NCBI GenBank assembly: GCA_016795505.1
Contig: JAEUHH010000082.1
Location: forward strand, 1 to 46,220
Direction: 5' to 3'
DNA from: Verrucomicrobiales bacterium
GTDB taxonomy: Bacteria; Verrucomicrobiota; Verrucomicrobiia; Verrucomicrobiales; DEV007
Length of the DNA: 46,220 nt
The position numbers and the translations under genes are program-made. Below the pieces are notes generated by a model. The model did no database searches and was not told where the DNA came from. It saw only the letters and a list, made by a program, of their open reading frames with translations. Each line of letters begins with the position of its first letter. Position 1 is the first letter of the stretch. This document shows positions 12,391-31,603 of this stretch, in pieces.

Positions 12391-15150
12391 TCATTCCTCG
12401 ATCAGTTCCTCGACTTTGGCCTGCATGGCCTTCGCCCAGGCCTCATATCCCTCGGCGGTGAGGTGGATGGGAAACGGTTTTTCGTCCATGAACAACCCCG
12501 TCGACAGGGTGCCGTCCGGCTCGAGGAAATGTTCGCCGAGGTCGAGCCAGAAGACCTTCTGGTTGTCGGCCAGCTTCCCGATCCGCCGGTTCACTTCGTC
12601 GTTGCGCTGGCGTTTGATGGTTTCGCCCCGGGGGAAAATCGCGAGGAGGAGGATTTTGGCGTCGGGGGCCTTCGCGGCGAGCGTGTCGAGGATCGCGCGA
12701 ACGCCCTGGGCGGTGTCGTCGGCGGTCTCGGTGCCGAAACGATGCCCGGTGTTGTTGGTGCCGATCATGAGGATGAAAAGCTTGGGCTGGTAGCCGTCGA
12801 GCGTTCCGGGGAATCCGAGACGCCAGAGCACATTCTCGGTTTTGTCCGCCGCGATGCCGAGGTTCAGGGTGCGGTAGGCGGGAAAGTGTTTCGCCCAAAT
12901 CTCCGCCGGGGCGCCGCTCTGCCACCCCGCGGTGATCGAGTCGCCGATCAAGACGAGATCCCATCGGCCGGGTTTGGCCGCCGCCGCCTGTCGCTCGACG
13001 ATCTTCATCCAGCCGGGATTGTCCGTTCGCGGCGTGGGCGTGATGGCGAGTGGCTTGCCTGGAGTCGGCGCGGGTGGACTCGACCGGGTCGGAGGGGAGA
13101 CCGGAGAGGGTTGGGTCGGGGGTGCGGGGCTCGCGGCCGCAAAGGCAAACTCATCGGTGCGGAAGGGCGAGGCGGGCAGGCCGGCCTGGTTGTAGAGATT
13201 GCAGGTCGGGTTGTCGGCCCATGCATAACGCACGGCGATGGGCGCGGGCACCTGGCTTGACGAGACGAGCACGGTGTCTCCCTCGATCTTCGCCTCGGCC
13301 CATACCCACTGCTGGTCGGCACCGCAGATGGCGAAACCTTCGAGCGGGCTTTGCGGGCTGTTGCGCACGAGCGGCGCGGTTTTGCCGGCCTTGCGCATCA
13401 CGTCGTAGGTCGCGGGAAGTTCCTTGGCGACGAGGCCGCCGCCGAGGTGGTCAAAGCTCAGCCGGATGGCGCTGCCCTCGATCGTCATCGAGGTGTAAAC
13501 CGGACCGGAGGACACGACCTCGCGGCCATAGGTGTTCGCGAGCGCGATCCGGGCAAGGCGTTCCCCGGCGATCTGCTTGCTTTGCGGATGGATGTCCTCG
13601 GATTCGCCGGTGTCGATGAGCACGGCCATGCCGGTGTTCGGCACGGAGAGCGTCTTCGCCTGCGCCTCGCGGAGCTCCGCCCACACGCTCTCGCCGGGCT
13701 GGTCCGTCTTCCCGCGGTAGTTGGCGAGCTGGCAGAAGTAGAAAGGGAAATCGCCCTGCTCCCAGTGCTGCCGCCAGTCCCGGATGAGCAAGGGAAACGA
13801 GGTGCGGTAGAGGCTGGGGTTGCCCGTGTTCGACTCTCCCTGATACCAAAGCACGCCGCGAATGGCATAGGGCAGGAGGGGATGCACCATGCCGTTGAAA
13901 AGCCTGCCGGGCAGGACGTGCTGGCCGGTGAGTGGCGGGACGGCTTTCTTCGCCTCGGCATCGAGCGGAGGCAGCGCATATTCCGCCTTGGCCATCCAGC
14001 CACCGGGCATCTTCGTGGTGCCCACGCTGGGGAACCAACTGAATCCCGGAGGCTCGGCCGGAGCAAAAAGGCGCACGGCGAGCTGGTTCACGCCGTCCTT
14101 CAACAGCGCGGGCGGAATCAGGTAATGACGCACGCTATTGAGGCCGGTGAAGCCGTCCACCGAACGCTCGCCGATGAGGGTGCCGTTCCAATACACCTGG
14201 TCAAACGGGGCCGTGGGACCGAACTGCAGCACCTGCGCCGCGCCGGTCTGTCGTGCGCTCAAGGAGACCTCCTTGCGAAACCAGAAGGCACCATACTGGG
14301 GCAAGGAAGGATCGGACACCGGCCCGCTGTCCTTCACCGCCACCCAGCCGTCCTCCGTCGACGCGGGTCCGTTGAGGAATCGCGACACCTCGTCCGAGGT
14401 GCGGTCTTCGCGCTGTGTCCGCTTCAACCACTCGCGAAAGGCGGCCTTGTTGCGCTCGCTCATGGCGTTGAGGTTTTTCGCGCCTGAGGCCAACTCGGGC
14501 ACGCTGGCGAGCGAGGCCGGACTGATCCACGGCTCCACCTTCGAGCCACCCCAGCAGACCTTGATGAGGCCGACGGGGATCTTCAGCTCGCGCTGGATAC
14601 TTTTGGCGAAGTAGTAGCCCGCCGCGATAAAATCCTCCGTCGTGCCTGGACGTGCCGCGGTCCAGTAGCCCGGCACATCGTCCGCCGGAGCATCGGCAGA
14701 AGGGTTTTTCAAGACGTGAAACTGCCGCAGCGCCGGGTTCGCCGAGGCCTCGATTTCGGAAGCCGCACTCGTGATCGCCTTCAGGTCTAACTCCATGTTC
14801 GACTGCCCGCCGCCCGCCCACACTTCGCCCACGAGCACGTCGGCGACCTTCAGGCTGCGGTTCCGGGTCAGCGATTTCACGACCAGCTCGCGGGCCTCGG
14901 CGTTCGCTTCGAGGGCATCGAGCTTCACCGTCCATTTGCCATCCGCGTTCGTCGTCGTGCTCCGGCTCTGTCCCGCAAAATCCACCACCAACTCCTCCCC
15001 CGGATCCGCCCAGCCCCACACCGGTACGGATTTCCCGCGTTGCAGGACCATGTGATCGGAGAAGATCGAGGGCAGCCTCAGCTCGGCTGCATGGAGCACG
15101 GCCAGCGGCGCGAAGACAAGGACAGTGAGGAGTGCCAATCCGAGTTTCAT
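12391..15150 (-). CDS. two-domain esterase: sialate O-acetylesterase-like plus SGNH/GDSL hydrolase
   Basis: 919 aa with a signal peptide (MKLGLALLTVLVFAPLAVLHA). Domain 1 (~22-660) is a sialate O-acetylesterase-like SASA protein: LPSIFSDHMVLQRGK, nucleophile Ser117 in GGGQSNMELD, GVLWYQGESN, and the EDIHPQSK histidine; an inserted beta-sandwich lies near 270-370. A Pro/Ser-rich linker (~665-710) leads to domain 2, an SGNH hydrolase (~725-919): Ser738 in IGDSITAGW, Asn799 in GTNN, and Asp889/His896 in MDEKPFPIH. Both domains keep their catalytic residues. The start codon overlaps the stop of the upstream sulfatase in ATGA, implying coupled synthesis with a desulfating enzyme. Likely removes acetyl or acyl groups from decorated glycans. 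Confidence 0.92.
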   Translation of the reverse strand: MKLGLALLTVLVFAPLAVLHAAELRLPSIFSDHMVLQRGKSVPVWGWADPGEELVVDFAGQSRSTTTNADGKWTVKLDALEANAEARELVVKSLTRNRSLKVADVLVGEVWAGGGQSNMELDLKAITSAASEIEASANPALRQFHVLKNPSADAPADDVPGYWTAARPGTTEDFIAAGYYFAKSIQRELKIPVGLIKVCWGGSKVEPWISPASLASVPELASGAKNLNAMSERNKAAFREWLKRTQREDRTSDEVSRFLNGPASTEDGWVAVKDSGPVSDPSLPQYGAFWFRKEVSLSARQTGAAQVLQFGPTAPFDQVYWNGTLIGERSVDGFTGLNSVRHYLIPPALLKDGVNQLAVRLFAPAEPPGFSWFPSVGTTKMPGGWMAKAEYALPPLDAEAKKAVPPLTGQHVLPGRLFNGMVHPLLPYAIRGVLWYQGESNTGNPSLYRTSFPLLIRDWRQHWEQGDFPFYFCQLANYRGKTDQPGESVWAELREAQAKTLSVPNTGMAVLIDTGESEDIHPQSKQIAGERLARIALANTYGREVVSSGPVYTSMTIEGSAIRLSFDHLGGGLVAKELPATYDVMRKAGKTAPLVRNSPQSPLEGFAICGADQQWVWAEAKIEGDTVLVSSSQVPAPIAVRYAWADNPTCNLYNQAGLPASPFRTDEFAFAAASPAPPTQPSPVSPPTRSSPPAPTPGKPLAITPTPRTDNPGWMKIVERQAAAAKPGRWDLVLIGDSITAGWQSGAPAEIWAKHFPAYRTLNLGIAADKTENVLWRLGFPGTLDGYQPKLFILMIGTNNTGHRFGTETADDTAQGVRAILDTLAAKAPDAKILLLAIFPRGETIKRQRNDEVNRRIGKLADNQKVFWLDLGEHFLEPDGTLSTGLFMDEKPFPIHLTAEGYEAWAKAMQAKVEELIEE

Positions 15151-16568
15151 TTCGGGGAAGCCTTCGGAGTCCAGTGTGCATCCAGCCTGGCGCGGAGGGA
15201 GTCGACGATGTCCGGATGCTGGCTGGCGACGTTGGTTTCCTCCCTCGGGTCGGACTCCAGATCGTAGAGCATGGGTTGAGCGGCTTTGAGCGCTGCGATG
15301 AGATAGGGTTTGAGGTAGTTGTCCGGCGGGATGGTCTTGAGCGAGCCTTCGGCTTCAAAGGTGCGTGGCAGAATGAGACGCCAACGACCGTCGGTGACCC
15401 ACCGCCACACCACATTCGCGTTCACGTCGTCGAGCGTTTGCGAGCGAATGGTGAAGTCCTCGCCAAACACCTGCCGGCGCGTTTCGACGGCCGTGGCGTC
15501 GAGCAGATCGACGCCCCGGAGTCCCTCCGGAACGGGTAGTTGAAGCGCGGCGAGCACCGTGGGCACGAGGTCGATGGACGAGGCCAGCGCGGAGGACATC
15601 GCCGGCTTCACCTGTGCGGGCCAGCGCACGAGGATGGGCGTGCGATGCCCGGCATCGAACGGGCTCGTCTTGCTCTTCGGTGCGAATCCGCCAGTGGTGG
15701 GCGATTGGATCCAGCCGTTGTCGGTCACGTAGATGACGATGGTGTTTTCGGAAAGGTTTTCCTTCTCGAGATGACCGAGCAGTTCGCCGCAGGTTTCATC
15801 AAACCACTCACACATCGCCCAGTAGCGCGCCAGATGCGGCGAATCGGTCTTCGCGGCATACTTTTGAAAGAGACGCTCCGGCGGGGTGTGCGGTGTGTGC
15901 GGCATGAACGGCGCATACCACACAAAGAAGGGTTTTTGCTGCTTCCGTGACTCGGCGATGAAATCGTAGATCGGCTGCATGCCCTCGCGCCCGATGGTGA
16001 GTCCCGCATCGCCGTGGCGGGAGCCCCGCGACATGCCGTGAGTGAAGCCGCCGCGCGTGTAGTCGCCCTGCCACCACTTGCCGGTTTGAAAGCTCAGGTA
16101 TCCCGCGCTCGCGAGCAAGCGCGGCAGCGTCGGCACCTGGTCGAGCATGCCATTCCACCGCGCGGTGAGTTCGGCGGTGGAACCGCGCCCGCCTTTGGCC
16201 TTCGTGCCCGGCGGCAGCGGCGGATCATTGGCGGTGACCTGGTGCTGATGCGGATAAAGCCCGGTGATGATGGTCGCCAGACTCGGACAACAGACGCTCG
16301 TGGGCACGAAACCGCGCGGAAACGCGAGGCTCTGTGCCGCGAACTGGTCGAGATGCGGCATCTGCACCTGCGGATGTCCCATGAAGCCGTAATCACCGGC
16401 GCCCTGATCGTCCGAGATGATGAAGACAATGTTGGGCCGCGCGGGAAGTTCCGCGGCATGCATGTCGGCAAACGTTGCGAGCAGCAGGGCGGCGAGAGCC
16501 GACCGAAGGAAGACAGCCTGCCATGCGGATTTCAACGAGATGCAGGCAAGGGTGAGGGCGTGTTTCAT
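15147..16568 (-). CDS. sulfatase family protein with Leu in place of the signature Arg
   Basis: 473 aa from the ATG at 16568; an upstream in-frame start would add 20 residues before the signal-like segment AVFLRSALAALLLATFADMHA. Alkaline-phosphatase-like sulfatase: NIVFIISDDQGAGDYG gives Asp53/Asp54, the formylglycine region is SVCCPSLATIITG with Cys93, TGKWWQGDY gives Lys164, and the metal-site motif YVTDNGW follows. The usual C-x-P-S-R signature has Leu97 (CTG) instead of Arg, and the His that normally follows GKW is Trp. These may mark a subfamily rather than damage, because the rest of the protein is intact. 4-bp ATGA overlap with the downstream two-domain esterase. Confidence 0.87.
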   Translation of the reverse strand: MKHALTLACISLKSAWQAVFLRSALAALLLATFADMHAAELPARPNIVFIISDDQGAGDYGFMGHPQVQMPHLDQFAAQSLAFPRGFVPTSVCCPSLATIITGLYPHQHQVTANDPPLPPGTKAKGGRGSTAELTARWNGMLDQVPTLPRLLASAGYLSFQTGKWWQGDYTRGGFTHGMSRGSRHGDAGLTIGREGMQPIYDFIAESRKQQKPFFVWYAPFMPHTPHTPPERLFQKYAAKTDSPHLARYWAMCEWFDETCGELLGHLEKENLSENTIVIYVTDNGWIQSPTTGGFAPKSKTSPFDAGHRTPILVRWPAQVKPAMSSALASSIDLVPTVLAALQLPVPEGLRGVDLLDATAVETRRQVFGEDFTIRSQTLDDVNANVVWRWVTDGRWRLILPRTFEAEGSLKTIPPDNYLKPYLIAALKAAQPMLYDLESDPREETNVASQHPDIVDSLRARLDAHWTPKASPK

Positions 16569-16582
16569 GACAACGGGTTGAT

Positions 16583-16752
16583 TCACTCCTTCCATTCGGG
16601 CGAAGCGCGCGGTCCGGCAACTTCGCATTCACGCCTCGGAGCCGCTGTAAAGCGGACGGATGCTTCCTCCGTCTTCACCCATTCCGCTGCCTTGCGGTTG
16701 GCGGCAGTGATGGCGGTGAGAGCGGCGGTGTCAGGAGTCTCGTCGGAGGCGC
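16583..16752 (-). pseudogene. unrecognised 3' coding remnant
   Basis: Frame ending in TGA at 16583, 14 bp before the sulfatase start: ...TAALTAITAANRKAAEWVKT...VAGPRASPEWKE. It has good coding composition and ends like a normal operon gene, but has no start and joins, in another reading frame, the glycosidase-like remnant at 16753. I cannot assign a family. It is probably the tail of the gene that once preceded the sulfatase. Confidence 0.4.
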
Positions 16753-16885: not shown

Positions 16886-16891
16886 ATCGCG

Positions 16892-17377: not shown

Positions 17378-17382
17378 GGAAT

Positions 17383-17712: not shown

Positions 17713-17745
17713 TGCGAGGAGGGCACGGGAACGCGGATTGCCGGT

Positions 17746-20148
17746 TCACTCGAGGCGGATGAGGTCGGGGGATTCGGTCGAGTCTTCAATCGCACGGATC
17801 GCCTCGCGGACGGAGGTGGCCTTTTCAATCATCAGTTTGGGGGGGAAGTCCTTCTCTTCCTTTTCGAAATAGTGCGCGATCTTCTCCAGTTCCGGGATGA
17901 CCGATTTCGCGTGGGTGCCATAGGTGAGGAGGATCTTCATCAGTTCCGGCGTCCGTATTTGGCTCGCCCAGGGATTCTGGTCGCGGGTGTATTGCACGAG
18001 GGCGGCCATGCCTTCCTCGATATGGTGCCGAGCGAGGAGGCGGAGCCCTTCGACGCGGATCTGATCGGCGAACATCTCGCCGCTGGGCGCGGGTTGGATG
18101 ATGGCCTCGTGAATCGCGGGCAGGAGCGGCCGGATCTCTTCGAGGGAGAGGTGTTGGTAAACAGAGGCGATGCTGCCGCGGGCGCGTCCGTCCTGGTTTT
18201 TCAGACCGGCTCGAACCGCTTCATAAAGGGCGGCGCGATCCACGCCTTCGAGCGAACGGCTCAGCATGCCATCGCGGTCGAACAGGGCAAAGGACAGGTA
18301 GCGTTGCTGCATGCCACGGGGATCTTTCTCCAAATCGACCTTGGCCAGCAGTTCGAGGAGTTGCGGGACCGCCGGCATGGCGGGTGCGCCGATCGCCGCG
18401 AGGGCCTCGGCGGCCTTGATCCGCAGCCAGAGATCCTCATGCGACAAGGTTTTCCGAAGCGCCTCGACCGCGGGGGCCCCGCGTCCGCGGAGGAAGGTCA
18501 ATGCCTGGCAGGCGCCGTAGCGGGCCTCGAGGACCGGGGATTCGAGCATTGCGATCAAGGGCGCGGCGTTGGCATTTTTGCGACGGCCGAGAGCCATGGC
18601 AGCGCGCTCGCGGACGACGGGTGACCAGTTCTGGAGGCGCTCGATCAGTTGTTCATCGGTCAGCGAATCGTAGAAGGTGTTGCGGTCCTTGTTGTTCCAT
18701 CCACGACCATCGAGGATGACTGCCTGGGCTTTGGCGGCGTCGAGTTGCGGGATGGTCGCAGAGCGTTTCCCGGTGAGAAAAATCTTCTTCAGCGGCATGG
18801 CGTAGGCGAGCAGGAAGGCTCCGGTGCAGTCCCAGCCCGCATAGCTGTCATTGCCCGGCTCCGGTGCCCCCTGGTGAAGAAAAGTGCCATCCCAGCGGCG
18901 GGCCAGGTCGAGATACCAGGAACCGAATTCCTGCATCCAGGCCCCCGTGGCCTGCGGTCCGGAATGCGCCACGCCGGGCATGGCCCAGATCAGGTTGAAG
19001 AAGTTGCCGGTGTGACCGGTGTCGCGTTCGGAGCCGTGGGAGGCAAGGCTCATGCGCGAGAAGAACTCGGCGCCCTCGGCCTCGTCGAGGAGGCTGAACA
19101 GGACCGAGGCCATGCCGCATTTGCCGTTGTCTTCGTGGTTCTCGATCCACGGGTGGTGATCACCATAAGGGATCGCTCCCTTGCCGATGTAAAATCGCAG
19201 CAAACGGGAACTGCGCTCGATCGCGAGGTCGATCGCGGGATCCTTGACTCCGGCAGCACGTGCCATCACAAGTCCGATCGTCATGGGGATTCCAGGCGAG
19301 TTCATCATCCCGTAGCCCCGGAGCCGGCCATCCGGCTTGGCAAAGGTGTGGCCCCAGGAGCCGACCGCGCTCTGACCCTTGGCCGACTCGATGGCGAGGC
19401 GTCCGAGGCCGGGCATCACCGTCGTATCACCGCTCGCCATGGCATACTCGGCCAGCAGCATCATGACGTAGCCGTAGCGCCATGATTGCATGTTGTCGGC
19501 GGAGAAGTCGGCCGCCCATTCGGCCTCCCGCTTCACCAGCGGCAGGTAGGTCGGATCGCCGCTCGCGAGGAGGGCGAGGGCATTGAGTGATCGTGTGATG
19601 GGCTCGCCCGACGGACCGTTGCCGTAGGAAGGATCGGCCATCCGCGCCGCGAGCGCCCGGCATCCTTCCTCAAGAATGCGCTGTGATTTGAGACAATCAT
19701 ACGGGGCCGTGGCCGAGTAGCTGCCGAGGACGGGCAGCGTCACCACGACCTCGTCCGTTTTGCCCGCCCGCCATCGTGTGAGGACCAGCTTCCCCGCACC
19801 GGCCTCCGTTTCGGCGGTCGTGAGGGCGAGGCCCAACTCCGTGCGCGGATCGTAGGAGAAGGGTTTGCCGGCGACTCCCAGGATCACGTCACCAACGGCG
19901 AGGATGCCATCCGCAGGGGACTTCTCTTCGACCTTGGTGATGAAGATTTGACGGGCGTCGCTCGTCACCAGTTTGTCGCAGTGCATCCAGCCCCGCAGGC
20001 CCGTGGCTCCGAGGTTCCAGTCGTGTTTGGCGTTTGGGGGAATGACACCCCCTTTCGTGAAATCGGGAGGCGCGGTGGTTTCATTCGGTCCGGCGGAGTG
20101 GCCGAGCGTCGTGAGAAATAGAGCAGGGAGGAGGAGGGCGAGTTTCAT
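17746..20148 (-). CDS. DUF6288-like protein: PDZ-like + alpha-helical toroid-like + HEAT repeats (copy 2)
   Basis: 800 aa from the ATG at 20148, chosen for the signal peptide MKLALLLPALFLTTLGHSA. Residues ~70-135 look like a PDZ fold (KSPADGILAVGDVILGVAGKPF). The middle (~160-480) has helical-pair repeats resembling (alpha/alpha) toroid proteins: RSLNALALLASGDP, YGYVMMLLAEYAMASGD, and GSWGH. It also carries polar motifs conserved in copy 1: IPYGDH, HEDNGKC, GHTGN, WDG and GWDC. The C-terminal third has HEAT-like repeats (VVRERAAMALGRR, LWLRIKAAEALAAIG). I assign DUF6288 from memory of this architecture in Verrucomicrobia. No reaction is known; the conserved His/Asp/Asn cluster suggests an enzyme. 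Last intact gene of the 11-gene operon. Confidence 0.8.
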   Translation of the reverse strand: MKLALLLPALFLTTLGHSAGPNETTAPPDFTKGGVIPPNAKHDWNLGATGLRGWMHCDKLVTSDARQIFITKVEEKSPADGILAVGDVILGVAGKPFSYDPRTELGLALTTAETEAGAGKLVLTRWRAGKTDEVVVTLPVLGSYSATAPYDCLKSQRILEEGCRALAARMADPSYGNGPSGEPITRSLNALALLASGDPTYLPLVKREAEWAADFSADNMQSWRYGYVMMLLAEYAMASGDTTVMPGLGRLAIESAKGQSAVGSWGHTFAKPDGRLRGYGMMNSPGIPMTIGLVMARAAGVKDPAIDLAIERSSRLLRFYIGKGAIPYGDHHPWIENHEDNGKCGMASVLFSLLDEAEGAEFFSRMSLASHGSERDTGHTGNFFNLIWAMPGVAHSGPQATGAWMQEFGSWYLDLARRWDGTFLHQGAPEPGNDSYAGWDCTGAFLLAYAMPLKKIFLTGKRSATIPQLDAAKAQAVILDGRGWNNKDRNTFYDSLTDEQLIERLQNWSPVVRERAAMALGRRKNANAAPLIAMLESPVLEARYGACQALTFLRGRGAPAVEALRKTLSHEDLWLRIKAAEALAAIGAPAMPAVPQLLELLAKVDLEKDPRGMQQRYLSFALFDRDGMLSRSLEGVDRAALYEAVRAGLKNQDGRARGSIASVYQHLSLEEIRPLLPAIHEAIIQPAPSGEMFADQIRVEGLRLLARHHIEEGMAALVQYTRDQNPWASQIRTPELMKILLTYGTHAKSVIPELEKIAHYFEKEEKDFPPKLMIEKATSVREAIRAIEDSTESPDLIRLE

Positions 20149-20204
20149 GGAGGGTGAACGAATCGAAATGAGCTTGATCAGTGATTGACGCGGTTCCGTT
20201 GTCT

Positions 20205-21392
20205 TCAATCTTTTGCCAGTCCCGCCATGGCCTCGGCGAAGCCCTTGCCGATGCCCCCGAGGATCTTGGCGGAACCGAGGTAGTGGAATTCGGCGTTGGA
20301 GACGCCTTTCTCGAGGATGAGGCGCTCCCGTTCGGAGAGGCCTTCGGCCCGCATCTTCTCCACGAGGCTTCTTTCCTCCGCCGGCTTCAGGCTCTGCTCC
20401 TTGGCGAGCTTTTTGGCCTCATTGGTGATGCCACCGTCTTTGGCGCGGGCGCGGGTCAGCTCCGGATCCCAGTAGTTTTCGGTGAGAACAGATGCGACCG
20501 TGCCCTTGAACTCCGGCAACTGCGCCGGGGCCGCCATGGCGGCGCGGAAGTTTTCATGCGTGCGCTGATAGCGCTTCTGTTCCGGCAGGTATTCCGAAGT
20601 CGGGCCACCGACCCCGAGCACGCCGATGACGAAGGGCAGGGCCGGTGTGTTGAGATCCCTGCGGACATCTCGGATGAAATGGGCCATCACCTCGCTGTAG
20701 GCGTCGTAGCCGCCGGGCTGGTCGCGGTTCGGATAGGTGCCTTGGTCCACCATGTCATTCCAACCCTGGAACCACACGAAACCGGCGATTTCATGGCCCT
20801 GCGAGGCATGGTGGTCCGGGACGACGCTCTGGAGGTCAGCGAGCACGGCTTTCACATGCTCGATCATCAGCCGGTAGTAAACGCCCGTTTCCCTCTCCTT
20901 TGCCGCTTTGATCGCGGCGATGTCTTTTCCCTGCTTTTGGAACTGTGCGAGCTGCGCTTCATTGAACCCGTAAGGTCCGGCGCTCGGTGGACGAAAATCG
21001 GTGTGCAGGCTTTTGCCGCCCCACGCAGTCTTGATGAGCAGAATGGGCGCATCGGTGAGCGTTTCCATCGTGAGGCCAAAGGTGAACTCGGGCCCGATCT
21101 TCGGTCCGTTCTGGCTCGCGCCGAAGCCTGCGGTGAGTTTGCCACTCCTGATCTCATCCGCGCTGCCGAGCGATGAAATCCAGACACGGTCACATACCTT
21201 CGGCTGGCCATCCGGGCCGGTCATCATATCCAGCATCGGCTTGGTGGCGGGGTCCATCCCGATGTGTTCGAAGGTGGCGATCTTCGCGTGGCCCTGCATG
21301 TTGGACTGGCCGGCGAGGATGAAGACCTTCAGCGGTTTGGCATGAAGCGGCGCTGAGAGCGCGAGAAAGAGGAAGGCGATGGCGGATCTCAT
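20205..21392 (-). CDS. SASA (DUF303) acetylesterase-like protein, short form 2
   Basis: 395 aa with a signal peptide (MRSAIAFLFLALSAPLHA). Single SASA/SGNH-type domain: Ser30 in ILAGQSNMQGHAK, LLIKTAWGGKSL, GFVWFQGWNDMVD, and the C-terminal NAEFHYLGSAKI block with its His. It is clearly paralogous to the gene at 25758-26993 (GQSNM.GHAKI.TF, NDMVD..TYP.R, HFIRDVR.DL, PFVIGV.GVGG). Expected to hydrolyse acetyl esters on sugars. Ends 56 bp before DUF6288-like copy 2 and starts 19 bp after copy 1, so the SASA/DUF6288 pairing looks like a duplicated module. Confidence 0.9.
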   Translation of the reverse strand: MRSAIAFLFLALSAPLHAKPLKVFILAGQSNMQGHAKIATFEHIGMDPATKPMLDMMTGPDGQPKVCDRVWISSLGSADEIRSGKLTAGFGASQNGPKIGPEFTFGLTMETLTDAPILLIKTAWGGKSLHTDFRPPSAGPYGFNEAQLAQFQKQGKDIAAIKAAKERETGVYYRLMIEHVKAVLADLQSVVPDHHASQGHEIAGFVWFQGWNDMVDQGTYPNRDQPGGYDAYSEVMAHFIRDVRRDLNTPALPFVIGVLGVGGPTSEYLPEQKRYQRTHENFRAAMAAPAQLPEFKGTVASVLTENYWDPELTRARAKDGGITNEAKKLAKEQSLKPAEERSLVEKMRAEGLSERERLILEKGVSNAEFHYLGSAKILGGIGKGFAEAMAGLAKD

Positions 21393-21411
21393 GGGATGGT
21401 GGGAGCGGGCG

Positions 21412-23826
21412 TCAATTGGCGGAGCGGGCGGTGAACTCGGCGAATCCCACCAGTGTCGGTGTGGCCGTGGCCGACTCGATCGCGGCGACCCCCTGGTCGA
21501 ACATCTGCAGGTGATCGGCGGAAACTTTCTTCACGTTCGCGAGGTAGGCGCGGATCTCCCCGAGTTTTGGAAGGAACGTCTTGGCGTGGGCGCCGTAGCG
21601 CTGGAGGTAGATGAGACAGTCTTTCGTGCGGTTTCTTTCACCCCATCGCTCCGGTTCCATCGTGCTGACGCAGAGTTCCATGCCTTCGCGGATGCCGAGG
21701 CGCGAGAGCAGGTCGAGTCCTGCCAGCCTCACCCCGTCGCCGAACATCTCGTTGCTCGGTGCGAGCTGCTGGATCGCTTTGACGATGTCTGGCAAGAGGG
21801 CGACGACATCCGCGTCGGTGAGCTTGTTGAATGTCTTGGAAGCTCCGCCGCGGGCGATGCTGTCCTCATGATGCAGGAGCGCCTGCAGGGCGGGATAGAG
21901 TTGGGCGCGGTCCACGCCCTCGAGGGAGGCCCCGAGAATGCTCTGCGGCCCGCGTTCTCCGGGATAGTTCGCGAAGAGCGCGAGACTGGCGGAGAGTGCG
22001 GTGTGACGGCGGGGATCGGCGGGGTTGGTGCCGACGGCCAAGGCGAGCAGGTCGCTCACGCAGGCCTTGCGCGCGTCAGGGCCCAGCGCCGGGATCGCCT
22101 CGGCGGCGAGACATTGCACCCACGGGTCGGAATCCCGGAGGGCGGCGCGCAGTTGCGGGGCCGCGGCATCGGCGCGTTTGCCGAGAGCTTCGAGGGCCTC
22201 GCACGCGCCGTAGCGGGCATCAGGGTTGCTGCTAGCGAGCATCTTCAGCAGCACGGGCAGGTGGTCGCCCTCGCGTTGGCCCAGCGCGGCGGCGGAGCGT
22301 TTGCGGACGAAGGGAGACCAACTCGTGAGTCCGGTGAGGAGCTGCTCGTCGCTGCGCTCTTCGTAGCGGTCGGGATCGCCTTTGAAGGCAAAATCGCGGC
22401 CGGCGGCGATGACTTCGGCGACCTGTTTGTCGTCGAGCGGCGGGACGGTGAAGGGTTTCTTGCCGGTGAGGCGCAGGCTCCGCAACGGCAGGGAATAGGC
22501 GATGAGATGCTGGCCGCTGCAATCCCAGCCAACGTATTTGTGGTGCTCCTCGGCTCCTTCGGGAGAGGGTTGATACACAAAGGCACCGTCCCAACTCCGG
22601 GCGAAGTCATAATACCAAGCCTGCTCTTTGAGATAGGCTCCGATGGCCTGCGGGCCGCAGCGGGCGACACCCTGCAGCGCCCAGAGGTAGTTGAAGTAAT
22701 TGCCGGTGTGGCCGCGCTCGCGTTCGCTGTAGGCAGCGGTGGACATTTTGGCAAAGAACAAGGCCGCTTCGCGATCGCCGAGCAGATCAAACAGGACCGC
22801 TCCGGCGGAGCATTTGCCGTTGTCCTCGTGTGCGGGGTAGGGGCGGTGATCGCCGTAAGGAATGCCGCCCTTGTTGACCCACCAGCGGAGGAAGCCGGCC
22901 GCCTTCTCGATGGCCCGGTCGAGATCAGGATGTGTCACCCCGGTCTCGCGGGCGAGGACCATGCCGATGGTGAGGCTCAGGCCTGGCTGGTTCATCGCTC
23001 CGTAGCCGCCGAGATTGCCGCCCGGAACAGCGAAACGATGGCCCCAGGTGCCCACGCCGCTCTGGCCGCGCGCCGTTTCCAGTGCGAGACGCTCCAGGCC
23101 CGGCAACACCGCCGTGTCACCCGTGGCCGCGACATATTCCCCCAGAAAGATCATGAGGTAGCCGTAGTACCAGGAAAGAAATCCGTCCGTGGTGAAGTCA
23201 GCGGCCCATTCCGCCTCCTTCTTGATCAGCGGCAGATACGCCTGGTTGCCGCTCGCGAGCAGGGCGAGGGCGTTGAGGGAACGCGGGATCGGATTGAGGC
23301 CCTTCGTGTAATCCGGCGCAGCCATGCGCTCGGCCAGCGCGGCGCACCCGAGTTCGAGGATGCGCTGCGATTTCGGGCAATCGTAAGGGGCCGTGGCGCT
23401 GTAGCTGCCCAGCACGGGTAGCCGGAGCGTCACCGGTTCCGTTTTGCCGCTCCGCCAACGCAGCAATTTCAGCTCACCGTCGGATGCCTCCGCGGTCGTG
23501 ATGGCTTGGGCGAACTGCACCCGTGCGTCGTCGGAGAACGGCGTGCCGTTCACCCCGAGGATGACATCGCTTTTGCTGAAGGCACCGTCCGCCGGCGAGC
23601 CCGCTGCTACCTCGGTGACGAGGATCTGGCGTGCCTCGCGCGAGTGGCCTTTCGCGGTGAAATACCAGCCGCGGAGCCCGGTGGGACCGAGCGTCCAATC
23701 GTGCTTCGCACCGGTCGGCAGGGTCGGATCGGTCGTGAAATCAGGTGGCGTGGCCGGTGCCTTCACTTCGGCGGACGAAGCGAAGCCGGGCAGCAGGAGG
23801 ATGGCGAGGAGAAGTCTGAGTTTCAT
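21412..23826 (-). CDS. DUF6288-like protein: PDZ-like + alpha-helical toroid-like + HEAT repeats (copy 1)
   Basis: 804 aa with a signal peptide (MKLRLLLAILLLPGFASSA). It has the same layout as copy 2: PDZ-like segment at ~66-128 (GSPADGAFSKSDVILGVNGTPF), SYSATAPYDCPKSQRILELGC, a toroid-like helical region with GTWGHRFA, IPYGDHRP, HEDNGKC, GHTGNYFNYLWA, WDGAF and GWDCSG, then HEAT-like repeats (PFVRKRSAAALGQR, PWVQCLAAEAIPALG). The two copies align over their whole length with many substitutions, so the duplication is not recent. Function unknown; secreted or periplasmic by signal peptide. Confidence 0.8.
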   Translation of the reverse strand: MKLRLLLAILLLPGFASSAEVKAPATPPDFTTDPTLPTGAKHDWTLGPTGLRGWYFTAKGHSREARQILVTEVAAGSPADGAFSKSDVILGVNGTPFSDDARVQFAQAITTAEASDGELKLLRWRSGKTEPVTLRLPVLGSYSATAPYDCPKSQRILELGCAALAERMAAPDYTKGLNPIPRSLNALALLASGNQAYLPLIKKEAEWAADFTTDGFLSWYYGYLMIFLGEYVAATGDTAVLPGLERLALETARGQSGVGTWGHRFAVPGGNLGGYGAMNQPGLSLTIGMVLARETGVTHPDLDRAIEKAAGFLRWWVNKGGIPYGDHRPYPAHEDNGKCSAGAVLFDLLGDREAALFFAKMSTAAYSERERGHTGNYFNYLWALQGVARCGPQAIGAYLKEQAWYYDFARSWDGAFVYQPSPEGAEEHHKYVGWDCSGQHLIAYSLPLRSLRLTGKKPFTVPPLDDKQVAEVIAAGRDFAFKGDPDRYEERSDEQLLTGLTSWSPFVRKRSAAALGQREGDHLPVLLKMLASSNPDARYGACEALEALGKRADAAAPQLRAALRDSDPWVQCLAAEAIPALGPDARKACVSDLLALAVGTNPADPRRHTALSASLALFANYPGERGPQSILGASLEGVDRAQLYPALQALLHHEDSIARGGASKTFNKLTDADVVALLPDIVKAIQQLAPSNEMFGDGVRLAGLDLLSRLGIREGMELCVSTMEPERWGERNRTKDCLIYLQRYGAHAKTFLPKLGEIRAYLANVKKVSADHLQMFDQGVAAIESATATPTLVGFAEFTARSAN

Positions 23827-23904: not shown

Positions 23905-25761
23905 TCAGGGTTCGGTGAGGAGCTTCTTTGCCTCCGCGACGCGGCGCTTCCGATCCTCCGCCTTCAGAGCGGTGATGAGTTCGTTGGTTTCCCCGCGATT
24001 CAGTAATCCAGGAGTTGAGGACTTTTTGCCGGTGTAGATTTCATACATGTCTGCGAGCGAGAAGGAATCGTTGCGCTGGGTGTCGAAGGGCAGATTCGAG
24101 AGATCGCTGGACTTGAGGGTTTCGAGTGGATTCCTCGCCCACGCGTAGCGGAAATAGACCGGATCGGGAACCCACTCGCTGGAAAGCACGATGGTGGAGC
24201 GTTCCCAGTTTGGCTGACCCTTTCCAGCATTCTTGTCGAACCATTGCGCCTCGGCTGGTTGGAAACGGCCGTCTTTTCCCGCGATGGCGAATCCCCGGAT
24301 CGGACCGTCGTGGTAGGGGATCGCCCAGGAGTCGAGCTTCAGGATCAGTTTGCCGTCGGCGGCTTTCACCTCCTGGATTTGAGGCGGCAGCCAGCGGATG
24401 TTTTTGCCGTATTGTGTGGCGAGCGCCCACTTCGAGATGCGTTCGCCCACGGGAATTTTGATTTGGGGATGATACCAGGCGCGGTGCTGATCGAAACTGG
24501 CGGCGTAACCGATATTCTGGTCACCGGCCTTGCGCAGGTTCAAGAAAGTCTGGTAGTGGACTTCGCGGATGTAGTTTCCCTCGTCCACCATCGGCGGCAG
24601 GAAATTCTCGAGCGTCTGGGGCTGGTCCTGCGTCTCCTGGGTGATGATGCCGAAAGGCATGGCGGGATCATCGAAGGCGGTGCGCCAGGCCCGGATCATT
24701 TCCGGGAAGACCCGGGCATACAGCTTGTGTCCGTTCGGCATGAGGGCCTCGTTGTAGCCTTGATGCCAGATCGCGCCCTTCACCGGCAGCCCGGCAATCG
24801 TCGAGAGCGTGCCGGCGTAGAGGGTGCCGGGCCGGTTCATATCCGCTGCTGGACCCGGCTGCAGATCGGTGGGCGGTTGACGGTCGGGAGGAATCGGCTT
24901 GCTCTGCGCCTTCTGATTGGCGGCCCAGGTGTTGTACTGCTGGATGCGGTTCTCGAGATCCTTCTTCGGGTCGAACTCAGAAATCTTCTTATCCCATTCG
25001 GCCAGCGCATTCCTCACCTCCGGGGTGTCGATCTGCTGCAACACCTCGATCGGAGTCCAGGACATGAGCGTCGTCCCGCCGCGGGAGACATCGATGAGTC
25101 CGATCGGAATCCCGGTGGCCATGTGGAGGCGGCGGCCGAAGATGTAACCGATGCCCGACATATCCGGCACCGTTTCCGGCGAGCACACGTCCCAATATCC
25201 TTGACGGAAGTGTTGGCTGAAAAACGAATTCCACTGGTATTGGCGGGGAAACGAATTGCGTGGCTCCGGCCCGTTCTGTTGGGGCACGGTGAAGAGACGG
25301 ATCTGATCAAAGTTCGCCGAGAGAATCTCGAGGGGACCTTCCTCCAGTTTGCGGATTTCGAATTCCATGTTGCTCTGGCCCCCGAGCAACCAGACATCGC
25401 CGACGAGGAGGTTCGTCAGCTCGAGGGTCTCCTTCTTGCCCTTCACCGTGATCGTGCGCGGCTCCGAACTGGCGGGCCTCGCGGGCAGTTCGACCTGCCA
25501 GGACCGGTCGTCGGCGGCGGTGGCCGTCCGGGTTTCCTTGCCAAAGGTCACCGTGACGGTCTCACCGGGCGCGGCCCAGCCCCGGATCGGGATGGGGCGA
25601 TCCCGTTGCAAGACCATGTTGGACTGGAACAGGTTGTGGACGCACAAGCCGCTTCCGATCGCGGGCGTGTCGATCCGGTCCTTTCCCTCTTCCGGGGCAT
25701 CCGCGGCGGGAAGGGTGGCAGCGAGGCCGAATGCTAGCAAGATGAGGAAGACGCTCTTCAT
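23905..25761 (-). CDS. sialate O-acetylesterase-like protein (SASA, long form)
   Basis: 618 aa with a signal peptide (MKSVFLILLAFGLAATLPAA). The N-terminal beta-domain is typical of sialate O-acetylesterases (LFQSNMVLQRDRPIPIRGWAAPGE). The catalytic domain has Ser130 in WLLGGQSNMEFE, GIGYIFGRRLH, IPIGLIDVSRGGT and KGAIWHQGYNEA; the usual DxxH-type C-terminal histidine is likely in ASFDQHRAWYHPQIKIPVGER. Predicted to de-O-acetylate sugars; sialic acid itself is not implied, as the family acts on varied acetylated glycans. Its start overlaps the stop of the SASA gene upstream in ATGA; the DUF6288-like copy 1 follows after 78 bp. Confidence 0.9.
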   Translation of the reverse strand: MKSVFLILLAFGLAATLPAADAPEEGKDRIDTPAIGSGLCVHNLFQSNMVLQRDRPIPIRGWAAPGETVTVTFGKETRTATAADDRSWQVELPARPASSEPRTITVKGKKETLELTNLLVGDVWLLGGQSNMEFEIRKLEEGPLEILSANFDQIRLFTVPQQNGPEPRNSFPRQYQWNSFFSQHFRQGYWDVCSPETVPDMSGIGYIFGRRLHMATGIPIGLIDVSRGGTTLMSWTPIEVLQQIDTPEVRNALAEWDKKISEFDPKKDLENRIQQYNTWAANQKAQSKPIPPDRQPPTDLQPGPAADMNRPGTLYAGTLSTIAGLPVKGAIWHQGYNEALMPNGHKLYARVFPEMIRAWRTAFDDPAMPFGIITQETQDQPQTLENFLPPMVDEGNYIREVHYQTFLNLRKAGDQNIGYAASFDQHRAWYHPQIKIPVGERISKWALATQYGKNIRWLPPQIQEVKAADGKLILKLDSWAIPYHDGPIRGFAIAGKDGRFQPAEAQWFDKNAGKGQPNWERSTIVLSSEWVPDPVYFRYAWARNPLETLKSSDLSNLPFDTQRNDSFSLADMYEIYTGKKSSTPGLLNRGETNELITALKAEDRKRRVAEAKKLLTEP

Positions 25762-26993
25762 CGCGAGGAAGCGTTCAACAGGGTTTCCGCAAAGGCCCTG
25801 CCCATCAGCGCAAAGGTCTTCGCGCAGCCGAGATAGTGGTAGCCGGCGTTCGAAGCTCCGCGCTCCCAGAGGGCTACGTCAGAGGGCGTGATGAGTTTGG
25901 CTTCGTAGTCCTTGAGGTAGGCACGCTTCTCTTCCTCGGTCATGTGACCATCGGCATTGGCGTGATCCTTGTGTTTGGAATTCAGGAAATGGCCCATCTG
26001 GCGGACTTGGGCGCGCTTCTCATCGATCACGGCCAGTTCCTCCGACCAGAAGGGCGCGGTGGGCACGGCGAAGACGTTGCCCTGGAACTCCGGCAGCCGC
26101 GACGGCGCCGTCATCGCCTCGCGGAAAGCGAGATTGTCTCCATCCGCCTTTGCCCCGCCGACGCCCATCACCCCGATGACAAAGGGCATCCCCGGCGCGT
26201 CGAGGTCTTTGCGCACATCGCGGATAAAATGGGCGAGCAGGTCGCTATAAACCGCGAAACGCCCCGGCTTGCCGCGATCCGGGTAGGTATGGCCGTCCAC
26301 CATGTCGTTGAAGCCCTGAAACCAAACGAAGCCCGCAATCTCGTAGCCATCTTTCGCCTCGTAGGCGGGGCAGATTCGTTTGGGATCAGCTAGCACGTGT
26401 TTGACATGCTCGATCATGTAGCGATAGAAGCGGCCGGTTTCCTGTTTCTTCTCCGCGAGCCACTGATTCATGTCTTTCGGCACGCCATGGCCGGGAGGGC
26501 CGTAGTAGAGCTTTTTCTGGTAGTCGTTCAGTTCGTACGGTCCCGCGCTCGGTGGGCGGAATTCCGTGTTCAGGCTTCTTCCTCCCCACGCCGTTTTGAT
26601 GATCAGCACCGGCTCGTCGAGCGCCGCGTCGAGTGTGAGCCCGAAGGTGAATTCCGGGCCGATCTTGCCGCCATCCTCCGTCGGACGATCGCCGCGGGCA
26701 CCGTAGCCGGCGGTGAGTTTGCCGAAGCCTTCGCCATTCGCGCTGCCGTCATACCTCCCAGTGAGATAGGAAATCCAGACGTTCTCACAGACCGTCGGCT
26801 TGCCGTCGGATACGCGCATCTGTTTCAGGAGCGGGGCCGTGGCGGGATCGTCGCCGATGTAGTCGAAGGTCTCGATCTTCGCATGGCCCTCCATGTTCGA
26901 CTGGCCGGCTAGGATGTAGACCTTGAGGGGGGCGGCACTAGCGTGGCCGCAGGCGAGCAGGGAGAGGGCAATGAGCGTGTGAATGTGATTCAT
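25758..26993 (-). CDS. SASA (DUF303) acetylesterase-like protein, short form 1
   Basis: 411 aa from the ATG at 26993, chosen because MNHIHTLIALSLLACGHASA is a good signal peptide; an ATG at 27023 is also in frame. Ser32 in YILAGQSNMEGHAK, LIIKTAWGGRSLNTEFRPPSAGPYE, GFVWFQGFNDMVDGHTYP, and NAGYHYLGCAK near the C-terminus. Paralogue of 20205-21392, with an extra segment near 340-375 (NADGHMTEEEKRAYL). Couples by ATGA overlap to the long SASA gene downstream and lies 37 bp after the SASA gene upstream, giving three consecutive esterase genes. Confidence 0.9.
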   Translation of the reverse strand: MNHIHTLIALSLLACGHASAAPLKVYILAGQSNMEGHAKIETFDYIGDDPATAPLLKQMRVSDGKPTVCENVWISYLTGRYDGSANGEGFGKLTAGYGARGDRPTEDGGKIGPEFTFGLTLDAALDEPVLIIKTAWGGRSLNTEFRPPSAGPYELNDYQKKLYYGPPGHGVPKDMNQWLAEKKQETGRFYRYMIEHVKHVLADPKRICPAYEAKDGYEIAGFVWFQGFNDMVDGHTYPDRGKPGRFAVYSDLLAHFIRDVRKDLDAPGMPFVIGVMGVGGAKADGDNLAFREAMTAPSRLPEFQGNVFAVPTAPFWSEELAVIDEKRAQVRQMGHFLNSKHKDHANADGHMTEEEKRAYLKDYEAKLITPSDVALWERGASNAGYHYLGCAKTFALMGRAFAETLLNASSR

Positions 26994-27030
26994 GACAGTA
27001 GGTAGGGGGAGATGGGTTTTCATTTGGATT

Positions 27031-28149
27031 TCATTTGGTTTTCAACAGTTCGACCATTGCTTTGCCCATCGCTTCGCCGACATCCATGTAGACTTCCGCT
27101 TTGCCACCGTAGTGGCCGTTGCCGCTGCCGCCCTGCGCCATCGGGTGGGTGTAGATCGTTGCGACATTTCCCTTGAACCTGGGATATTTGCCGGAGGCTC
27201 CGTCGACCGCGAGCTGGGCGTCGAGAATCAGCGCGCCGTTGCCTTCGCCGCCCTTCACCGACTCGCCCATGGTCGCGAGGACGAAGGGCGCGTCGGGCGC
27301 GTTGAACTCCTTTCTCACCGACTCGATGAAATGCACGAGATTCCGCTCGTAGCGGGCCGCATGACCGGGATTGCCGGCGTCCTTTTCGCCCTGCCAGAAA
27401 AAGAATCCCGCGACCTCGTATCCCTTCGCGCCGGGATGGTGCCGGTCGAGTTCGGAGAGTACCGTCTTCGCGTAGGAAATGTCGTCGTCCCACTGCTTTC
27501 CGGCATACCAGTCGATCGGCTTTCCGTTCTTGTCCACCCAGGGCCCCGGCTCGGTTTTGAGGCCCTTGGCGGGATCGATTTCCCAGGACTCTGGCTTGTC
27601 CTTGTAGCCCGCATAAACCATCTTCTTGTCCACGCCGGCGCGGTCTTTGACGGTGAATTCATACCGCTCGCTGCCCGGCGGGAGCAGGTCCCAGCCCAGG
27701 CTGCGATTGCCGATGCAGCTCTTCAAAATCATCACCGGTTCCTCCAGGGCATCGCCGACGAATTCCGCGATGCCAAACTCCGGCCCGATCGTCTTGCACG
27801 CGTTCACCGTCATCCACTCGTTGTTCAGTCGCTGCATCGCACCACCGCCGCGGCCCTGCATCACGCGGACAAAGCGCACGTCCTTCCGTTCCGTCCATGC
27901 GCCCGAGGCATCCACGAGGTAAGGATACTTCTTTTCAAACTTCACGGCGTGTTCGAGGGACATGTCGCCGCCGGTTACCTTCCCGAGACCGACCATGTTG
28001 GATTGGCCCAGAAGGATGAAAACCTTGACCGGTTTGGAAAGATCCGCGGCTTCGTCCTGCGCATGGAGCGCTGCACCCGGCACGAATAGCGCGAGCGCGA
28101 CGACGAGGGGACGGGGACAGCGGCGGTGGGGCGGAGGAGTGGGGTTCAT
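27031..28149 (-). CDS. SASA (DUF303) acetylesterase-like protein, divergent
   Basis: 372 aa; N-terminal positive stretch then hydrophobic LVVALALFVPGAALHAQ as signal peptide. Ser50 in FILLGQSNMVGLGK, VMILKSCIGNRSLGWDLLPPGS, VAGFFFWQGEKDAGNPGHAARY. The C-terminal part NGHYGGKAEVYMDVGEAMG supplies the likely catalytic His. It is only moderately related to the other SASA proteins here, so it probably prefers another ester or glycan position. The ATG overlaps the M24 peptidase stop (ATGA). Confidence 0.88.
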   Translation of the reverse strand: MNPTPPPHRRCPRPLVVALALFVPGAALHAQDEAADLSKPVKVFILLGQSNMVGLGKVTGGDMSLEHAVKFEKKYPYLVDASGAWTERKDVRFVRVMQGRGGGAMQRLNNEWMTVNACKTIGPEFGIAEFVGDALEEPVMILKSCIGNRSLGWDLLPPGSERYEFTVKDRAGVDKKMVYAGYKDKPESWEIDPAKGLKTEPGPWVDKNGKPIDWYAGKQWDDDISYAKTVLSELDRHHPGAKGYEVAGFFFWQGEKDAGNPGHAARYERNLVHFIESVRKEFNAPDAPFVLATMGESVKGGEGNGALILDAQLAVDGASGKYPRFKGNVATIYTHPMAQGGSGNGHYGGKAEVYMDVGEAMGKAMVELLKTK

Positions 28150-29315: not shown

Positions 29316-31603
29316 TGGGCTTCGAATGCGGGCGGTAAATCGACCGGCAAATGCCGGTGCAGGTAGTGGGTGAGAGTGGTGTGAAAGTGCCGCACGGTAT
29401 TGGTTCCTTCGGAAATGGCGTGGCTGCGGTTTGGGTAGGGTACGGCCGTGAAAACCTTGTTGTGGGCGATGAGTTCGTCGATCAGAAGCTCCGTGCCCTG
29501 ATAGTGCCCGTTGTCGTCTCCGGTGCCGTGGATGAGCAGGAGATCGCCTTTCATCTGGTGCGCGTGGGTGATAGGCGAGCCGAGTCGGTAGTTCGCGGCG
29601 TTGTCCCGCGGCAGGCCCATGTAGCGCTCCTGATAAATGGTATCATAGAGGAGTTGGCTCGGATTGGGAGCCACCGCCATCGCCATGGCATAGAGCTCGG
29701 GGTAACGAAAAAGGGCATTCAGGCTCATGCTGCCGCCGCCGCTCCATCCCCAGACGCCGACGCGCGCGGGATCGACCTGAGGCCACAGCTTCAGGAGGGC
29801 GCGGACTCCGGCGGCCTGGTCATCCGCCGCGAGGATGCCGATCTGTCGGAAGGCCATCTTGCGCCAGGCGCGTCCGCGCGGGACGGGAGTGCCGCGGTTT
29901 TCGATGCTGGCGACGAGGTAACCCTGCTGCGCCAGCATCCAATGCCACATCCCTCGTTCGCCCTGCCATCTGTCCTGCACCGTCTGGCTGGCGGGTTCGC
30001 CGTAGACATGGATCAGCAAGGGAACCCGTCGGGCCGGGTCCAATGCCGGAGGTTTGATGAAGCTGACATCCAAAAGCACCCCGTCGCCGATCTCCACCCG
30101 GGTGAAGCCGGTCTCCGGAGCGCGCAGGGCGGCCACCCGAGCGCGGAGCGTCTCATTGTCTTCGACCACCCGGACGACCTGGTGGTCGGGAAACCGTACA
30201 AGTTCCACCACCGGTGGCTTGGCAAAGGTGGAATAGGTATGCATGGCCCAGCGGCCGTCACGGGAAAACTCGTAGTCGTGCCAGCCCGGCTGTGATGCCG
30301 GTGAGAGGCGTTCCGGCGTGCCGCCGCCGAGGCGCTGACGGTAGAGATGGTGCTGGGTCGGATTGTCCGGTGAGGCTGAGAAGTAGAGCCAGCCGTTCGC
30401 TTCATCCACCGCCCGGATCTGGATCAGGTCGAAATCGCCCCCCGTGATGCGTTCAAACCGCTCCCCATCGGTGCCGGCGAGATAGGCGTGTCGCCAGCCA
30501 TCCCGCTCGCTCAACCACAGAAAGGCGGAACCGTCCTTGAGCCAGCGGATCGGATTGTCGTTTTCGAGCCAGGCGTCGTCGGTTTCGGTGAGGACGTCAC
30601 GAATTGAGCCGGTCCCGGCATTGGCCAGCATGACCCGGTTGCGGTTCTGGAGACGATTGAGCTGCTGCACGAGGATGTGCTTCCCGTCGGGCGACCATTC
30701 CGCGCGGGGAAGGTAGTGTTCCCGCGGATCGCCCGGCAGATCGAGCCAGCACACCGCGCCTCCGTCGGCGCCGACCACCCCGAGGCGGGTGGCGGAGTTG
30801 GTTTCGCCGACCTTGGGATACGGAAACGACGTGATCTCCGGGTAGTTCCCGGCCGTGTTGTTGATGAGATGAAACCGCCCCACGCCGCGGGTGTCGAACT
30901 GCCAGAACAGGATCGACGAGCCATCGGGGCTCCAGCGGAAGGCATCGCGGATCTGGAGTTCCTCCTCGTTGACCCAGTCGGACGTGCCGTTGATGAGAGT
31001 GGCCGAGCCATCGGTGGTCACAGCGGCAATCGTCATCCCTTCCAGTTCCTGGACATGGACATTGTTCTCCCGGACATAGGCCACCCGGGTGGCATCGGGC
31101 GAAAACTTCGCGAACATGAGGGTGGCCGGCTCCGCGTCGCCACCGAGCTGCCGCAGAGAGCCAGGCTTATCGACTTCCAGCACCCAGTAGTCGCCGCGCG
31201 TCTTTTGCCGCCAGACCCGTTGGCTGTTTGTGTAGATCAGCACCCGCGATTCGTCTTCGGAGAATTCGAAGGAATCGATCTTCAAGGGTTCGCTTGCGCC
31301 CGCTGGAACGAGGGCACCGGCAGGCACGACGATTTCCTTCGCGCCGGTGGCGGCATCGTTCCGAACCAGGTCCTGTCTCTTGCCATCGCCTGTCGTCGTC
31401 TCGAGCGTGAAATACGATTCCGAGCGGCGGCTCCACCGGTAGGGGCCGAGGCGGCGCTCCTTGAACTCGCCTTCGGAGAAGATGCGGTCGAGATCGAGCA
31501 GGGCTGGATCGTTCCACCTCTTTTCCTCTTCGGCGGCCATGGGGGCGGTGATGATGGAAAGCATGAGAGCGAAAGTGAGGAGAATGAAGCGCTGGGAGGT
31601 CAT
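29312..31603 (-). CDS. S9 family peptidase (dipeptidyl peptidase IV-like)
   Basis: 763 aa from the ATG at 31603 (signal peptide TSQRFILLTFALMLSIITAPMAA); an upstream in-frame start lacks a signal. The N-terminal beta-propeller follows the DPP IV pattern (LLDLDRIF, FRWSPDGSSILFWQFD, TSFPYPKVGETN). The C-terminal alpha/beta-hydrolase domain has Ser621 in GWSGGGS, Asp696 in IHGTGDDNGHY and His728 in NRSHAISEG. Expected to remove X-Pro or X-Ala dipeptides from peptide N-termini in the periplasm or outside. ATGA overlaps couple it to a sulfatase upstream and the M24 peptidase downstream, an unusual desulfation-plus-proteolysis pairing. Confidence 0.93.
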   Translation of the reverse strand: MTSQRFILLTFALMLSIITAPMAAEEEKRWNDPALLDLDRIFSEGEFKERRLGPYRWSRRSESYFTLETTTGDGKRQDLVRNDAATGAKEIVVPAGALVPAGASEPLKIDSFEFSEDESRVLIYTNSQRVWRQKTRGDYWVLEVDKPGSLRQLGGDAEPATLMFAKFSPDATRVAYVRENNVHVQELEGMTIAAVTTDGSATLINGTSDWVNEEELQIRDAFRWSPDGSSILFWQFDTRGVGRFHLINNTAGNYPEITSFPYPKVGETNSATRLGVVGADGGAVCWLDLPGDPREHYLPRAEWSPDGKHILVQQLNRLQNRNRVMLANAGTGSIRDVLTETDDAWLENDNPIRWLKDGSAFLWLSERDGWRHAYLAGTDGERFERITGGDFDLIQIRAVDEANGWLYFSASPDNPTQHHLYRQRLGGGTPERLSPASQPGWHDYEFSRDGRWAMHTYSTFAKPPVVELVRFPDHQVVRVVEDNETLRARVAALRAPETGFTRVEIGDGVLLDVSFIKPPALDPARRVPLLIHVYGEPASQTVQDRWQGERGMWHWMLAQQGYLVASIENRGTPVPRGRAWRKMAFRQIGILAADDQAAGVRALLKLWPQVDPARVGVWGWSGGGSMSLNALFRYPELYAMAMAVAPNPSQLLYDTIYQERYMGLPRDNAANYRLGSPITHAHQMKGDLLLIHGTGDDNGHYQGTELLIDELIAHNKVFTAVPYPNRSHAISEGTNTVRHFHTTLTHYLHRHLPVDLPPAFEAQ

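Follow-up and report, generated by a model that had tools for sequence, protein, structure and literature searches.

DUF6288 proteins of a Verrucomicrobiota esterase and sulfatase locus as candidate secreted toroid enzymes acting on glycans

Results

A DUF6288 pair among esterase and sulfatase genes

The window, a 46,220-nucleotide stretch of a Verrucomicrobiales contig, contains two DUF6288 genes, whose products are called WA and WB here (Table 1). The first-pass annotation had described both copies as a signal peptide, a PDZ-like segment, an alpha-helical toroid-like middle and a HEAT-like tail. This architecture was borne out by the open reading frames at the positions in Table 1. Both proteins matched the PF19805 (DUF6288) profile over its full length (model positions 1-402 of 402), with 523.8 bits for WA and 467.1 bits for WB against a curated cut-off of 26.3, and Pfam profiles gave HEAT_2 tails and weak PDZ matches in both. 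WB is 804 aa long and WA is 820 aa if read from a TTG. Translation of WA more probably starts at the ATG at 20148 than at this upstream TTG, because a signal-peptide-like stretch opens there. Judged by eye, WA (from the ATG) and WB both have a signal peptide at the N-terminus. The two proteins showed 50% identity overall and 61% in the toroid, and all five motifs quoted earlier (IPYGDH, HEDNGKC, GHTGN, WDG and GWDC) were present in each of them.

Table 1. DUF6288 genes, their toroid domains and the surrounding esterase and sulfatase genes in the window.
Feature	Position	Strand	Evidence
SASA + GDSL esterase protein	12391..15150	-	domain matches
Sulfatase-family protein	15147..16628	-	PF00884
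WA, DUF6288 protein (signal peptide, PDZ-like, toroid, HEAT)	17746..20208	-	ORF; PF19805 E 4.5e-157, HEAT_2
WA toroid domain	18766..19737	-	alignment
SASA-family carbohydrate esterase, between WA and WB	20205..21392	-	PF03629 E 2.7e-21
WB, DUF6288 protein (signal peptide, PDZ-like, toroid, HEAT)	21412..23826	-	ORF; PF19805 E 7.1e-140, HEAT_2, PDZ; AlphaFold model
WB toroid domain, residues 136-457, with H263, Y275, Y324, H373, W404, R410	22456..23421	-	toroid model, conservation
Three more SASA-family esterases (23905-25761, 25758-27023, 27031-28149)	23905..28149	-	PF03629; close-spaced, same strand
Two sulfatase-family ORFs (31600-33246, 33021-34694)	31600..34694	-	PF00884

WA, WB, the SASA gene between them and their neighbours are close-spaced on one strand. 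The earlier remark that the operon otherwise has no backbone-cleaving enzyme held, as none of the window proteins scanned matched a GH or PL family above its Pfam cut-off. The sulfatase next to the SASA and GDSL gene (15147-16628) has VCCPSLAT at the C-x-P-x-R signature, with Leu for Arg, and differs in this from the window's two other sulfatases; it may be inactive or divergent. A short minus-strand ORF (16757-17749) overlaps the end of WA by four bases and contains PSCyt1 (planctomycete cytochrome C) and the first half only of PSD3. It looks truncated or frameshifted. A RhuM-family gene was found on the plus strand at 10985-12061, and of the 92 neighbours of DUF6288 that were scanned at other loci one is a RhuM protein as well.

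Paralogy and distribution

In a tree of 57 sequences WB clustered with proteins such as L005-L009 and WA clustered with genes from other genomes, the grouping of WA being less firmly supported than that of WB. Both lineages are found outside the source genome, so the pair does not go back to a recent tandem duplication, and from their placement in the tree WA and WB are old paralogues. At locus L007, too, two DUF6288 genes are surrounded by SASA and sulfatase genes. The source genome encodes a third DUF6288-related protein of 1522 aa (L048:2279-6847, minus strand, contig C6, G000:C6), which is divergent and matched the toroid only partially. DUF6288 occurred above the cut-off in 37 of the 289 genomes sampled, all from the phylum Verrucomicrobiota, and no relatives were found in the viral contigs and plasmids searched. 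The open-access literature searched yielded no mention of DUF6288 by name.

Predicted fold of WB

AlphaFold models of the toroid alone (pLDDT 62.5, pTM 0.71) and of full-length WB (pLDDT 77.7, pTM 0.77), both computed from a shallow alignment of 9 sequences, showed 12 helices arranged as six hairpins in the middle of the protein. A beta-rich PDZ-like part stood at the N-terminal end of the WB model and a helical HEAT tail came after the toroid. The prediction supports an (alpha/alpha)6 toroid and agrees with the toroid-like middle proposed in the first pass. Several of the motif-bearing loops had pLDDT below 50 and were the least confident part of the WB model.

A fold search against GH and PL toroid families had been suggested as a check. 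Foldseek gave weak matches for the toroid core (best E 0.014), and its list for the full model consisted mostly of HEAT/ARM proteins; hence only the toroid rows of the VIA-align list were used. In these rows cellobiose 2-epimerases, GH76, GH88, glucose 2-epimerase, squalene-hopene cyclase and related toroids aligned over 255-314 residues, with Z of about 16-21. GH76 was the top match of the full model with Z 20.7, compared to values up to 19.4 for AGE, 19.0 for cellobiose 2-epimerase and 18.3 for squalene-hopene cyclase. The search thus recovered the toroid fold with GH76 on top, but since the scores were near-tied with those of the epimerases and squalene-hopene cyclase, it identified the fold and not the family.

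Profile comparison with other toroid families

Family profiles were built from the fetched loci and compared by hhalign. A 25-row DUF6288 profile showed a clear match only to a toroid family of roughly 350 aa (98-99%), with weak values for AGE (8%) and SQHop (27%), and when the PDB was searched with a profile of the 25-row toroid alignment, nothing meaningful was returned (best E 0.33). The roughly 350-aa family itself matched squalene-hopene cyclases (97-98%) and also found squalene-hopene cyclase in a PDB search, at 4e-11. With 57 rows, the profile matched the roughly 350-aa family at 99%, SQHop directly at 94-96%, and AGE at 91-95% in local and 81% in global mode, with lower values for PL10 (30-53%), GH88 (22-43%), GH76 (3-23%) and alginate lyase (PF05426, 2-7%). 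As the AGE and SQHop links depended on the deeper profile, they were checked against shuffled, reversed and family-against-family controls. Column-shuffled and reversed profiles gave less than 1%, the accepted pairs taken as a yardstick gave 88-92% (AGE-GH76) and 77-83% (AGE-GH88), and SQHop compared with AGE directly gave 1.5%. On these profiles the DUF6288 toroid is placed between the terpenoid-cyclase-like toroids and AGE, and not with GH76, GH88 or alginate lyase. A close profile relationship to any of these three was thus not supported.

Two further observations were made in the same comparisons. Profiles of PL10 pectate lyase (L213-L232) and squalene-hopene cyclase (L056-L066) matched each other at 97-98%, which is another link between lyase and terpenoid-cyclase toroids. 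Proteins of about 350-500 aa in L042-L047 have a prenyltransferase-like toroid and are likewise of uncharacterised function; those of L046 and L047 have an N-terminal membrane segment and a proline-rich stretch, and are TonB-like in this respect.

In the hhalign alignment H263 fell on the His of the AGE motif PGHxxE, and H373 was not aligned in sequence with the second AGE His (FHxPR). PGHxxE lies near residue 247 and FHxPR near residue 380 in the AGE proteins compared. In cellobiose 2-epimerase His247 and His377 form the general acid/base pair (PMC5726027), so H263 stands at the position of the catalytic His247. By helix counting, H373 would lie two hairpins past H263, the spacing expected of the second AGE His.

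Conserved residues in the toroid

Conservation was scored in 57 toroid rows, 39 from the main clade (including the WA/WB branch) and 18 outer ones. E230, Y324 and H373 were invariant in all 57, and D237 (56/57), H263 (55/57), Y275 (53/57) and W404 (52/57) nearly so. H263, Y324 and H373 were nearly invariant even at an overall identity of about 20%, and H263 and Y275 are family-wide residues additional to the motifs quoted earlier. In the main clade N336, W382 and R410 were invariant (39/39), D407 was kept in 37 of 39 rows, H327 and H333 in 34 each, and D326 in 31 with Glu at this position in 7 more. Most of N336, W382, R410, D407, H327 and H333 were lost in the 18 outer rows.

The first-pass annotation had noted that the polar motifs were kept although the rest had diverged, and had named family-wide loss of these residues as refuting. 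The first point is correct for WA and WB, which share all five motifs; most of the motif residues are kept within the WA/WB clade and not family-wide. Loss was found to a large extent for PYGDH, HEDNGK, WDG and GWDC, whose residues were kept in about 35-67% of the 57 rows, and not for the GHTGN His and the PYG Tyr. No acidic residue on the long loops was kept across all 57 members; hence these putative cleft-side loops have no carboxylate pair common to the family. Most toroid glycosidases depend on such a pair.

Loop lengths alternated between long and short along the WB model, and the even helices, assigned from helix order, were called inner. Fifteen polar or aromatic residues between positions 151 and 444 were kept in at least 75% of the 57 rows. 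Seven of them (H263, Y275, Y324, H373, W404, R410 and Y431) lie on long loops into inner helices; of the other eight, four lie deeper in inner helices and one stands at an inner-helix start, while an outer helix carries two and a short turn one. The long loops already make up about 37% of this range, therefore the excess of conserved residues on them is modest and no P value is claimed. Toroid enzymes usually have their active site on the face formed by the long outer-to-inner loops, and in the model the long-loop side of the DUF6288 toroid is the putative cleft side.

Linkage and fusion across DUF6288 loci

We counted SASA and sulfatase genes within 5 kb of 19 DUF6288 loci in 14 genomes and derived expected numbers from genome-wide counts. 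Gene densities were taken from search tallies, the sulfatase density being an upper bound from first-look candidate numbers, and the SASA matches of L159 and L172 were added from a second search, that of L172 lying beyond 5 kb. A SASA homologue was found near 10 of 19 loci (0.93 expected, P 3e-9), a sulfatase near 11 of 19 (3.8 expected, P 1.5e-4), and one or the other near 17 of 19 (4.5 expected, P 5e-10). The chance model assumes that loci are independent of each other and that genes are spread evenly. Neither assumption holds strictly, and these P values are therefore indicative only. GH106, pectate-lyase-like and GH3 proteins were among the further neighbours in the 92 proteins scanned.

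DUF6288 and SASA were joined in one open frame in L163, L171 and L180, and L052 showed a weak N-terminal SASA match. These four proteins sit on separate branches of the 57-sequence tree and retain H263, Y324 and H373. Other members contained Laminin_G_3, PA14, F5/8 type C, NPCBM or Ig/cadherin-like domains. The short members, which are about 500-600 aa long, stop soon after the toroid and have no HEAT repeats, so the PDZ part and the toroid form the constant unit, to which HEAT repeats, an esterase domain or glycan-binding modules would be exchangeable add-ons.

Discussion

DUF6288 is probably an unrecognised enzyme of sugar polymers, because it is repeatedly fused to or found beside enzymes that take acetyl and sulfate groups off sugars. 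The case for a candidate new carbohydrate-active enzyme made in the first pass is supported in part: the toroid, the conserved long-loop residues, the linkage and fusion to esterases, the linkage to sulfatases and the fusions to likely glycan-binding modules all speak for it. Three things were not supported, namely motif residues kept throughout the family, a close relationship by profile to GH76, GH88 or alginate lyase, and a carboxylate pair common to all members. From the computed membership, predicted fold, conservation, profile kinship, linkage and fusion we infer catalysis, a reaction type, a substrate and a single pocket, and we see about an even chance that WA and WB are secreted toroid enzymes with a His/Tyr-centred, epimerase- or lyase-like site, whose substrates would be acetylated and sulfated glycans. 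The active site would comprise H263, Y275, Y324 and H373, and W404 and R410 would probably contact the substrate. The chemistry would consist in taking a proton from a carbon of the sugar, the way AGE-type epimerases do, or else toroid lyases and DS-epi1. The toroid would act together with the SASA acetyl esterases and the sulfatases. Two points count against an epimerase- or lyase-like site, namely that H373 is off FHxPR and that the beta-sheet domain of toroid lyases and DS-epi1 is absent. AGE enzymes work on free reducing-end sugars and the DUF6288 proteins look secreted, which we also count against an AGE-like reaction.

The main and serious rival is that the toroid binds glycan or protein and has no catalytic role; together with PDZ and HEAT it would form a periplasmic or cell-surface scaffold that keeps the esterases and sulfatases at their substrate. 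PDZ and HEAT typically serve as interaction modules, binding proteins use the toroid fold too (C3d and transcobalamin were in the Foldseek list), and the fusions to SASA and glycan-binding domains, which fit recruitment as well as catalysis, are explained by it nearly as well. We consider such a scaffold somewhat unlikely, as HEAT is absent from the short members, and as near-invariance of H263, Y324 and H373 at about 20% identity is more usual for catalysis than for binding. It is because His and Tyr stay near-invariant across such divergent members that catalysis is given its even chance over binding.

Among catalytic alternatives, a conventional toroid glycosidase that cleaves the backbone with two carboxylates, using D326, D335, D407 or D413 in the WA/WB clade, would agree with GH76 as the top VIA match, with the main-clade retention of D407 and of an acidic residue at 326, and with the scan of window proteins, in which no GH or PL was recognised. 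This is improbable in our judgement, given that no long-loop acidic residue is family-wide and that the profile matches to GH76 and GH88 are weaker than that to AGE; the conserved His, Tyr and Trp, with Arg in the main clade, suggest proton-transfer chemistry instead. An isoprenoid-type enzyme related to terpene cyclases or prenyltransferases would account for the SQHop match of the deep profile and for the 99% match to the roughly 350-aa family with its own link to squalene-hopene cyclase, yet we regard it as very improbable. The squalene-hopene cyclase motif DxDD was found in 0 of 57 DUF6288 members, the Cys of HEDNGKC was kept in no more than 18 of the 39 main-clade rows and in none of the 18 outer ones, and the signal peptides and the esterase and sulfatase context point to extracellular glycans. 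A zinc prenyltransferase, in which HEDNGKC and GHTGN would correspond to the DxC...H site of farnesyltransferase, was rejected on the same Cys counts.

If DUF6288 is an enzyme, it would provide a step that is missing from loci whose enzymes take off acetyl and sulfate groups and in which no backbone-acting enzyme is recognised. The recurrent DUF6288-SASA fusions offer a concrete pairing that can be assayed, and the link in sequence that joins two toroid superfamilies is relevant to the way in which the toroid fold diversified.

Comparison with known toroid families

The AGE superfamily (N-acylglucosamine and cellobiose 2-epimerases, YihS; PF07221) resembles DUF6288 in the predicted 12-helix toroid, in the profile match of 81-95% and in H263 on the PGHxxE His. 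DUF6288 proteins differ from it in being secreted and multidomain, in the unaligned FHxPR and, it appears, in a helix register shifted by one hairpin. The terpenoid cyclase and prenyltransferase toroids (squalene-hopene cyclase; PF13243, PF00432) have the same fold and sequence-related repeats, whereas DUF6288 is without DxDD and has signal peptides and a glycan-related context. The GH76 and GH88 glycosidases are alike in fold, GH76 being the top match by VIA, and unlike in their weaker profile match and in the acidic pair, which is not family-wide in DUF6288.

The toroid polysaccharide lyases and DS-epi1 (PL15, 17, 21, 33, 35 and 39) have the (alpha/alpha)6 toroid that is predicted for DUF6288. 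Their chemistry is carried out by Tyr and His (PMC8006597, PMC11848413, PMC12088678); DUF6288 has near-invariant His and Tyr, which may or may not be placed alike. They have a C-terminal beta-sheet domain, in contrast to DUF6288, where WB goes on to HEAT and other members go on to SASA or end.

WA and WB are full-length members of PF19805 and their family assignment is itself not new; what is added to this family of previously uncharacterised function is its fold, its kinship, its conserved residues and its association with SASA esterases and sulfatases. Tentatively, DUF6288 may represent a new class of toroid glycan enzyme that is secreted, has a two-histidine epimerase-like centre and no beta-sheet lid, and works with SASA in cis or in trans; in sequence it would bridge the terpenoid-cyclase toroids and those of AGE and the six-hairpin glycosidases.
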